The notes below the pieces were generated by a model that made no database searches, had not been told where the DNA came from, and saw only the letters and a list, made by a program, of their open reading frames with translations. Source: Deltaproteobacteria bacterium (GTDB lineage Bacteria; Desulfobacterota; Deferrimicrobia; Deferrimicrobiales; Deferrimicrobiaceae). From it: 50,435 nucleotides of DNA. Shown here in pieces: positions 18,965 to 35,197 of the stretch (position 1 is its first letter; every line of letters starts with the position of its first letter). A program made the translations under genes and the position numbers. The DNA lies in NCBI GenBank assembly GCA_025356865.1, contig JANXQJ010000074.1, positions 1 to 50,435 of the forward strand. The letters run 5' to 3'.

Positions 18965-20596
18965 CTACCGGCCCTGCCGGTTGGCGCGGTTGGTGATCGG
19001 CATCCGGCGGTCCTTGCCCAGTGCGCGCGGCGTGATCTTGACGCCGGGGGGGGCCTGCCGCCGCTTGTATTCGCTGCCGTCGACGAGCGACACGACCCGC
19101 CGCACGACGTCTTCCGGATAGCCCGCCGCCATCATCTCGGCAGCGCTCTTCTCTTCCTCGACGTACATCTTGAGCACCCCGTCGAGCACGTCGTATTCGG
19201 GCAGCGAGTCGGAATCCTTCTGGTCGGGGCGCAGTTCGGCGGAGGGCGCCTTGACCAGGATGTTCTCGGGAATCGCGTCGTATCCAAGGCGGCGGTTGTA
19301 GTCTCGGCAGACCGCGTAGACCGTCGTCTTGAACAGGTCCTTGATGACCGCGAAGCCGCCCGCCATGTCGCCGTAGAGCGTCGCGTACCCCACGCTCATC
19401 TCGCTCTTGTTGCCCGTGGTCAGGACCATATCCCCGAACTTGTTCGAGAGCGCCATCAGGATCGTCCCGCGGACGCGCGCCTGCAGGTTTTCCTCGGTTA
19501 GGTCCTTCGCGCGGCCGGCAAAGGAGGCGGCCAGCGTGGAATCGAACGCCTCGCACGCCTCGCGGATGGAGAGGTCCCGGCACCGGATGCCGAGATTTTT
19601 TGCCAGCCGGTGCGCGTCGTCGACGCTTTCCCCGGAGGTGTAGACCGACGACAACGTAACGCCGGTGACGCGGTTCCCGCCGAGCGCCTCTTTCGCGATC
19701 GCCGCGACCAACGCCGAATCGATGCCGCCCGAAAGGCCGATGATCGCGCCGGGGAAGCGGTTCTTCTCGAGATAGTCGCGCGTGCCCAGCACGAGGGCGC
19801 GAAAGATCTCCTCCTCGCGCGTTTCGGGAAAAGCGGCGATGGCCCCCACGCCCTTTCGTTTCATGCCCAGGTCGCAGGAGAGCAGCGCCTCTTCGAATTG
19901 CGGCGCACGGGCGAGCAGCGCGCCGTTTTCGGCGACCACCATCGAGCCGCCGTCGAACACCAGTTCGTCCTGCCCGCCGATGAGGTTGCAATAGGCCACG
20001 GCGCACCCCGCGGCCTTCGCACGTCGCGCCAGCAGGTTGCGCCGCAACTCCCACTTCCCCGCGTGATAGGGTGACGCCGAGATGTTGACGACGAGGCCTG
20101 CGCCCGATTTCGCCTCGCGCGTCATCGGCCCGCCGCCGACCCAGATATCCTCGCAGACGGTCAACCCCACGCCGGTCCCGGCGACCGGCACCACAAGCGG
20201 CTCGGTTCCCCGTGTGAAGTAGCGCATCTCGTCGAAGACGCCGTAATTGGGCAGCCGCATCTTGCGGTAAACGCCCCGGACCCGTCCTCCGGAAGCGACG
20301 CCCGCGGCGTTGTAGACGCAGCCCCGCTCGTCGCGATCGGCAAAGCCGACGACCGCGGTGATGCCCTTGACGGACGCGGCGACCTCGCGCCACGCCTCGA
20401 TGTTGTCGGCGACGAACGAGGGGCGCAGCAACAGGTCTTCGGGCGGGTAGCCGGTGATCGCAAGCTCGGGGAAAAGCACGAGCCCGGCGCCCGCATCCCG
20501 GGCACGGGCCGCGTATTCGAGAATCTTCGCGGCGTTTCCCCGGATGTCTCCGACGGTCGTGTTGATCTGGGCAAGGGCGACGCACAGCGGTCTCAT
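18965..20596 (-). CDS. nadE: Glutamine-dependent NAD+ synthetase
   Basis: 543 aa, a two-domain enzyme making NAD+ from deamido-NAD, ATP and glutamine. The N-terminal nitrilase-like glutaminase holds the Glu-Lys-Cys triad in FPELAITGY, YRKMRLPNYG and LTVCEDIW. The C-terminal synthetase has the ATP pyrophosphatase P-loop GLSGGIDSALV and TTGNKSE. The start at 20596 is taken because the nitrilase fold begins with RPLCVALAQIN. A 15-codon extension upstream would run across the promoter-like palindrome. No Shine-Dalgarno sequence precedes the ATG, and a TACCAT box ends 6 nt before it, consistent with a leaderless mRNA. Confidence 0.96.
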   Translation of the reverse strand: MRPLCVALAQINTTVGDIRGNAAKILEYAARARDAGAGLVLFPELAITGYPPEDLLLRPSFVADNIEAWREVAASVKGITAVVGFADRDERGCVYNAAGVASGGRVRGVYRKMRLPNYGVFDEMRYFTRGTEPLVVPVAGTGVGLTVCEDIWVGGGPMTREAKSGAGLVVNISASPYHAGKWELRRNLLARRAKAAGCAVAYCNLIGGQDELVFDGGSMVVAENGALLARAPQFEEALLSCDLGMKRKGVGAIAAFPETREEEIFRALVLGTRDYLEKNRFPGAIIGLSGGIDSALVAAIAKEALGGNRVTGVTLSSVYTSGESVDDAHRLAKNLGIRCRDLSIREACEAFDSTLAASFAGRAKDLTEENLQARVRGTILMALSNKFGDMVLTTGNKSEMSVGYATLYGDMAGGFAVIKDLFKTTVYAVCRDYNRRLGYDAIPENILVKAPSAELRPDQKDSDSLPEYDVLDGVLKMYVEEEKSAAEMMAAGYPEDVVRRVVSLVDGSEYKRRQAPPGVKITPRALGKDRRMPITNRANRQGR

Positions 20597-20602
20597 GCCA
20601 GT

Positions 20603-20612
20603 ATGGTACCAT
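20603..20612. promoter_or_regulatory. Palindromic bidirectional extended -10 element for nadE and the MFS gene
   Basis: ATGGTACCAT is a perfect palindrome that reads TGGTACCAT on both strands. The -10 hexamer TACCAT ends 6 nt before the nadE ATG (minus) and 7 nt before the MFS ATG (plus). The whole gap between the two start codons is only 23 bp. Confidence 0.6.
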
Positions 20613-20619
20613 CGGCGGA

Positions 20620-21774
20620 ATGCGCGCGTCCTCTTCCGCAACCGTCTACGATCGCGACTACCTCGTCGTCAACAGCGCCAACGTCTTCTATTCGCTCCAC
20701 GCGACGATGTTCATCTTCATGCCGGCGTACCTGTACACGCTCCACCTGCCGGCCGGGACGATCGGGTTGCTGATGGCCACGGGCACGTTCGCCTCCGTCC
20801 TTTTCAAGCCGCTCAACGGGTGGCTCGTCAACCGCGGGCGCCACGGCCTGTTCATGGCGTTCGGCGCCCTGATGTCCGGGCTCGCAACGGTGCCCTGGCT
20901 GTATTCCCATGAAGCCGGCCCCGCGCTCTACCTCCTGCGGGGGTGCCAGGGCGCCGCCTATTCCTTCTTCGCCACGGCCGCCTACGGGTACGTCGCTTCC
21001 GCCGCCCCGTCAGACCGGCGCGGCGAGGCGCTCGGCGTCTTCGGCCTGTCGTTTTTCATCCCGACCGCGCTCGGCGGCCAGCTCGGGGAGATGATCGTGC
21101 GGCACGCCGGCTTTCACGGCATCTTCCTCGGGGCCCTGGTCGCGGTGCTGCCCGCCGTGCTGCTGCCGCTGGCGCTCCGGCGGCGGCACGAAGGGGCATC
21201 GCTCACCCTCTCCGAACTCCGGCATTTCTTCGCCCCGCACACGCTCGTCCCGAATACGGCCGGCTTCCTGTTCGGAGCCGCGTACGGAACCATATTCACT
21301 TTCCTTCCGGTCTTCCTGATGATCCGGGGCGGCGGGACGCTGGGTCATTTCGTCCTCGTCTACTCGGCCGCCGTCGTTTCCACGCGAACCCTGGGCCGCC
21401 GCCTGGTCGACCGCTTCCCGCGCGAGTGGATCAGCCCGGGCGCACTCCTCCTCCTCGCGGCCGGCATCGTGGGGATCCCCGCGCTGCACGGCAACTTCGG
21501 CCTGGCGCTGGTCGGAATCGCCACGGGACTCGGGCACGGATTCCTTTTTCCCGCACTCTCGGCGCTGGCGATCGACCGGGCCGGGACAGGAAGGGAAGGG
21601 ATGGCGATGGCGCTTTACACGGGATCGTTCGACATGGGGACAGTCGCGGGGTCCGGGGTTCTGGGATTCGTGGCGGAGCGGTTCGGCTACCAGCCGATGT
21701 TCTGCATTGCCGCGTTGCTGACGGCCGCGGGAGCGGGCTTCTTCCTGCTCCCGGGAATGCGCTCCCGCCGTTAA
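20620..21774 (+). CDS. Major facilitator superfamily transporter
   Basis: 384 aa with about twelve hydrophobic segments across the whole length. The loop between TM2 and TM3 (KPLNGWLVNRGRHG) matches the MFS loop 2-3 pattern, and the second half repeats it less clearly (TRTLGRRLVDRFP). It is an inner-membrane permease or exporter with unknown substrate. It is divergent from nadE, sharing a 23-bp gap. Its last 4 bp overlap the end of plsC on the other strand. Confidence 0.9.
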   Translation: MRASSSATVYDRDYLVVNSANVFYSLHATMFIFMPAYLYTLHLPAGTIGLLMATGTFASVLFKPLNGWLVNRGRHGLFMAFGALMSGLATVPWLYSHEAGPALYLLRGCQGAAYSFFATAAYGYVASAAPSDRRGEALGVFGLSFFIPTALGGQLGEMIVRHAGFHGIFLGALVAVLPAVLLPLALRRRHEGASLTLSELRHFFAPHTLVPNTAGFLFGAAYGTIFTFLPVFLMIRGGGTLGHFVLVYSAAVVSTRTLGRRLVDRFPREWISPGALLLLAAGIVGIPALHGNFGLALVGIATGLGHGFLFPALSALAIDRAGTGREGMAMALYTGSFDMGTVAGSGVLGFVAERFGYQPMFCIAALLTAAGAGFFLLPGMRSRR

Positions 21775-34504: not shown

Positions 34505-35197
34505 ATGCCCCCCCAAAGCAAACCCGAGGGAATCGTCCTGCTCAGCGGTGGAATGGACAGTTCGGTCCTGGCCGCCTTCGCGCAGCGCGAATCCGACCTC
34601 TCGCTGCTCCACGTCAATTACGGCCAGCGGACGGAACGGAAGGAACTGGACTGCTTCCAGGCCATCGGCGACCATCTGGGCATCACCCGGCGCCTGACCG
34701 TCGACATCGGTCATCTCGCGCAGATCGGCGGCAGCGCGCTGACCGACGCCTCGATCGACGTACCGGCCGCCAACCTCGACCACGACGGCATTCCCGTCAC
34801 CTACGTCCCGTTCCGCAACGCCCACTTCATCGCCATCGCCGTCTCGTGGGCCGAAGTGATCGGGGCGACCCGCATCTATCTCGGCGCCGTCGAGGCCGAC
34901 TCCTCGGGCTACCCCGACTGCCGACCCGCCTTCTACGACGCGATGAACGAGACGATCCGGCAGGGGACGAAACCGGGCAGCGGCATCGTCGTCAAGACAC
35001 CGTTCATCGGACTGAAGAAGAAGGACCTCATCCTTTTGGGAAAATCGCTCGGCGTCCCGTTCGAGCACACCTGGTCGTGCTATCGGGACGACGCACCCGC
35101 CTGCGGCGTCTGCGATTCATGCGCCTTGCGCCTTCGATCCTTCGCCGAGGCCGACGTCGACGACCCGATCCCCTACGCGGTGCGCCCCAAGTACTGA
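34505..35197 (+). CDS. queC: 7-cyano-7-deazaguanine synthase
   Basis: Makes preQ0 from CDG with ATP and ammonia. 230 aa, normal. The PP-loop SGGMDSS (residues 14-20) binds ATP. The C-terminal zinc site is the cysteine set in SCYRDDAPACGVCDSCALR. SGYPDCRPAFYDAMN is a typical substrate-loop stretch. It lies 6 kb from queE. Confidence 0.96.
   Translation: MPPQSKPEGIVLLSGGMDSSVLAAFAQRESDLSLLHVNYGQRTERKELDCFQAIGDHLGITRRLTVDIGHLAQIGGSALTDASIDVPAANLDHDGIPVTYVPFRNAHFIAIAVSWAEVIGATRIYLGAVEADSSGYPDCRPAFYDAMNETIRQGTKPGSGIVVKTPFIGLKKKDLILLGKSLGVPFEHTWSCYRDDAPACGVCDSCALRLRSFAEADVDDPIPYAVRPKY

Follow-up and report, generated by a model that had tools for sequence, protein, structure and literature searches.

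Can a gap of only 23 bp serve as promoter for two genes that are transcribed away from each other, and if so, do the two directions compete? This question is raised by the divergent pair of nadE and an MFS transporter gene in the window (the whole analysed stretch of 50,435 nucleotides). The features involved are the following:

18965..20596, minus strand: nadE, glutamine-dependent NAD+ synthase, 543 aa (NF010588 above cut-off, PF02540, PF00795)
20597..20619, no strand: intergenic gap of 23 bp, all of it the proposed two-way promoter (from the sequence)
20603..20612, no strand: palindrome ATGGTACCAT with overlapping -10 elements in the ANNNTANNNT geometry (from the sequence)
20603..20611, minus strand: predicted extended -10 element TG-G-TACCAT of nadE, 6 nt 5' of the ATG (counterpart kept in genus members)
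20604..20612, plus strand: predicted extended -10 element TG-G-TACCAT of the MFS gene, 7 nt 5' of the ATG (counterpart kept in relatives)
20620..21774, plus strand: MFS transporter gene, 384 aa (PF07690)

The nadE product scores 734.9 bits with NF010588, against a cut-off of 479, and the NCBIfam matches of the MFS protein all fall far below the curated cut-offs. The A of the nadE ATG is at 20596 (minus strand) and that of the MFS ATG at 20620 (plus strand), leaving a gap of exactly 23 bp, and both starts are backed by alignments with relatives that begin at or near residue 1. The first-pass annotation, which had the starts of the two genes flank a 23-bp divergent gap, is borne out by the sequence, and the same holds for its description of the palindrome as an identical extended -10 element on both strands: TG-G-TACCAT is read both ways, with TA at 20607-20608 common to the two TACCAT hexamers.

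Placed at the optimal distance from the hexamer, the predicted start sites are 20619 for the MFS gene (plus strand; 20620 is the alternative) and 20596 for nadE (minus strand), and 20619 and 20596 are 23 bp apart. Because the hexamers lie 7 and 6 nt, respectively, from the ATGs of the MFS gene and nadE, both mRNAs are predicted to be essentially leaderless. Leaderless genes have been recognized by a TANNNT motif about 12 bp 5' of the start codon, counted from the first T (PMC3160421), and this T lies at 12 bp for nadE and at 13 bp for the MFS gene; by eye, no Shine-Dalgarno sequence is seen at a usable spacing before either ATG (...CCATACTGGC-ATG, ...CATCGGCGGA-ATG). The hexamer TACCAT matches TATAAT at only four of the six positions. 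A scan for consensus sigma-70 promoters detected no site, as expected for a promoter without a -35; neither a recognisable -35 nor a recognisable activator site was found here.

Promoters with starts 7-25 bp apart on opposite strands are defined as bidirectional (PMC10268837), and in E. coli, the commonest start spacing of such promoters is 18 bp, and spacings of 10 and 23 bp are frequent too (PMC12825309). The opposite-strand -10 elements of the nadE-MFS gap overlap, and the spacing of the predicted starts falls within the defining range. With a probability of roughly 0.78, the gap is best read as a bidirectional promoter of the housekeeping type, born of gap contraction, that would yield leaderless or near-leaderless nadE and MFS mRNAs from two directions that are independent at the basal level. 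Each strand has its own extended -10 element (TGnTACCAT), and the two overlap through the common TA, which would allow RNA polymerase to bind in either orientation and to initiate about 7 bp past each hexamer, at each ATG or one base before it. Ancestrally, the gap would have been longer, with a separate promoter close to each start, before it contracted in the studied genus. Exclusion would matter only if one direction became strongly active; at basal strength, both would probably fire independently of each other. In this scheme, we infer the start sites, the promoter activity, the sigma factor and the lack of competition at the basal level.

The proposed promoter resembles the bidirectional promoters with overlapping -10 elements described by Warman, Grainger and colleagues (PMC12825309, PMC10268837) in the overlap of -10 elements on opposite strands, in the steric exclusion this entails, in the 23-bp spacing of the predicted starts and in the presence of an mRNA gene on each side. 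It differs from them in that the promoter takes up the entire intergenic gap, both messages are predicted to be leaderless, and the predicted site is an extended -10 promoter in which no -35 can be recognised. A second likeness is to the leaderless genes of Deinococcus and Actinobacteria (PMC3160421, PMC12340547), in which a -10 element is located 6-7 nt before the ATG and there is no Shine-Dalgarno sequence; unlike in those genes, two elements are fused back to back here, and the extended TG is present.

How often would such an arrangement occur by chance? The rarity of the palindrome was considered as evidence and rejected, given that the window contains 90 perfect 10-bp palindromes against 79 expected, which is the background level. 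The copy of ATGGTACCAT in the gap is the only one in the window and also in the 2.8-Mb genome. In a random 24-nt gap at 60% GC, the chance of two correctly placed extended -10 elements is 1.3e-5. In the congener G002 (730 kb), the sequence ATGNTANCAT is found once, at the nadE-MFS gap; G000 (2.8 Mb) has six copies, and no further one there lies clearly between two divergent starts (an assessment by eye that used open frames instead of gene calls). Neither 730 kb of G002 nor 1.2 Mb of G013 yielded a further divergent pair with a common -10 element at both starts.

Within the genus, the core of the gap is ATGATACCAT in G002 and ATGGTAACAT in G001 (identical to the L001 sequence). The first-pass annotation had proposed conservation of the palindrome in relatives as a check, and the outcome is split: the perfect palindrome is not kept, being broken in each congener at one place, which serves one strand as the n of TGn and the other as hexamer position 3, and the promoter-defining bases are kept on both strands. 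Specifically, TGn-TAnnAT is present on both strands in G002 and in G001/L001, so that the bases that define the extended -10 element are retained in all three genus members. On the minus strand, the TG and the -12, -11, -8 and -7 bases are identical in the three genomes, two of which have the nadE ATG at a distance of 6-7 nt. The eight core bases are the same in all three genomes, with a probability of about 0.003 if they were neutral, i.e. evolving like fourfold sites (three-way identity of 40-54%), a value that comes from three genomes and from a core chosen after looking. The flank towards the MFS gene, CGGC, is conserved as well and, therefore, conservation is not limited to the core. A scan of genome contigs for the MFS protein yielded one relative, the promoter region of which has the same sequence as that of G001.

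In G001, the two-way promoter and nadE appear to have a group II intron between them (L001 1-136 and L003 1-135, on contigs C276 and C170): judging by Rfam matches, one contig ends in the 5' part of the intron beside the MFS promoter, and the other opens with domains V/VI just 5' of the nadE ATG. We infer the join across the contig ends.

Leaderless-type promoters are not confined to this locus. With genes and starts called by a simple home-made codon-model gene caller (the model for G013 being seeded from G002), TGnTANNNT is found 6-10 nt before the starts of 12 genes in G002, all with ATG, compared with 2.7 expected (P 2e-5), and before four starts in the window, compared with 0.6 expected (P 0.003), two of these four being the nadE-MFS pair itself. 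In G013, TANNNT precedes 43 starts against 27 expected (P 0.003), and the enrichment of TGnTANNNT is weaker (10 against 4.5 expected, P 0.018). Leaderless genes with an extended -10 element are enriched in the studied genome and its congener. Leaderless genes as such are not new here because earlier work had predicted them for 8 of 33 delta-proteobacterial genomes (PMC3160421). Genes at 34505, 27687, 23475 and 46196 of the window also have TANNNT 6-9 nt 5' of the ATG and are candidates for leaderless messages; by their N-terminal sequences, the first two resemble queC and queE.

Most genomes of the family have the divergent nadE-MFS pair, usually with a longer gap and two separate start-proximal promoters, and the gap can therefore be taken to have contracted in the studied genus. 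The -10 element of the MFS gene in the relatives (TATAGT, TAAAAT, TAAGAT or TACCAT) is located 7-10 nt 5' of the ATG in most of them. In several genera, this promoter sits in a near-palindrome, GGGTATAGTACCC (L036, L037, L038, L039, L040), the other strand of which reads TACTAT. The nadE gene of the relatives has a conserved block of its own, exemplified by TTCCCC-N17-GAGAAT on the minus strand of G013, 6-7 nt 5' of the ATG. This block, CATTCTCCCGGAAACnGG...GGGGGGAAG (L009 3112-3150; equivalents in most other loci of the family, namely L005-L008, L012, L013, L015-L017 and L019), is a spaced pattern with one other match in G013, and may be an unusual promoter or regulatory element; the exact pattern is absent from G000 and G002. 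In G006, the gap is 18 nt long; TATAGT and TACTAT have an overlap of five bases and spacers of 7 and 6, the geometry of the 18-bp spacing. G006 belongs to a different genus and is placed apart from the studied genus in the nadE tree, so that contraction seems to have happened twice, apparently independently, the second case being a single genome with a run of N in nadE. The possibility that nadE is broken in G006 was dropped, the apparent gap in the gene being that run of N. One bin, G008, contains two divergent nadE-MFS pairs (contigs C72 and C144; L053 and L046) that differ in their MFS promoters, which could reflect duplication or a mixed bin.

This family history also bears on the strongest rival to the bidirectional promoter, namely that only one direction, most likely that of the MFS gene, is a real promoter. 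The match on the minus strand would then arise from the symmetry of -10 elements, and transcription of nadE would begin elsewhere, such as inside the first part of the MFS coding region. The conserved start-proximal -10 element of the MFS gene in most relatives, whereas nadE there has a different block, is consistent with this possibility, and incidental divergent initiation caused by -10 symmetry is documented (PMC10268837). Nevertheless, we consider it unlikely: the ancestral nadE block is gone in the studied genus and no other promoter-like site was found 5' of nadE, and the minus-strand bases listed above, as well as the spacing to the nadE ATG in two of the three genomes, have been maintained.

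A less probable proposal is a real regulatory switch in which NAD synthesis and transport are traded against each other through mutually exclusive initiation, a stronger claim that is compatible with the bidirectional promoter and would come on top of it. The first-pass annotation had polymerase bind in only one direction at a time, which is to be expected sterically: the overlap of the -10 elements excludes simultaneous binding, as is the case for opposing polymerases at bidirectional promoters in general (PMC12825309). Regulatory competition does not follow from this. In E. coli, competition appeared only once one direction was strongly activated, and the basal activity of five tested bidirectional promoters was too low for it (PMC12825309). 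The further claim that NAD synthesis and the transporter are coupled or compete is thus unsupported, and most relatives keep the gene pair with separated promoters. With no recognisable activator site or -35 element, and with an MFS protein that has neither an assigned substrate nor a known link to NAD, a metabolic connection is guesswork.

That the palindrome, a perfect 10-bp inverted repeat placed between divergent genes as operators commonly are, is instead bound by a dimeric regulator of both genes is very improbable and was rejected because ATGGTACCAT has a single copy in 2.8 Mb, hence none upstream of other genes, and its symmetry, which stops at 10 bp, a size at which palindromes are at background frequency, is broken in both congeners where the -10 elements stay intact.

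Returning to the bidirectional promoter, the nadE-MFS gap is a well-supported further case of the already described 23-bp class, with the small twist that both sides are predicted to be leaderless; the known mechanism is left unchanged. If confirmed, it would be a minimal natural two-way promoter, with about 23 bp serving two genes and a leader on neither side. A broader, speculative and rather doubtful generalization is that, in this family, the shrinking of divergent gaps has more than once turned two leaderless promoters into a doubly leaderless bidirectional one (23 bp in the studied genus, 18 bp in G006). The conserved promoter block of nadE would thereby have been lost and the gene locked into permanent mutual exclusion with a transporter, and this arrangement may keep down expression noise or the amount of the NAD-making enzyme. 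Because the relatives retain the arrangement with separate promoters, the evolution of a bidirectional promoter by gap contraction could be traced and tested in this family.
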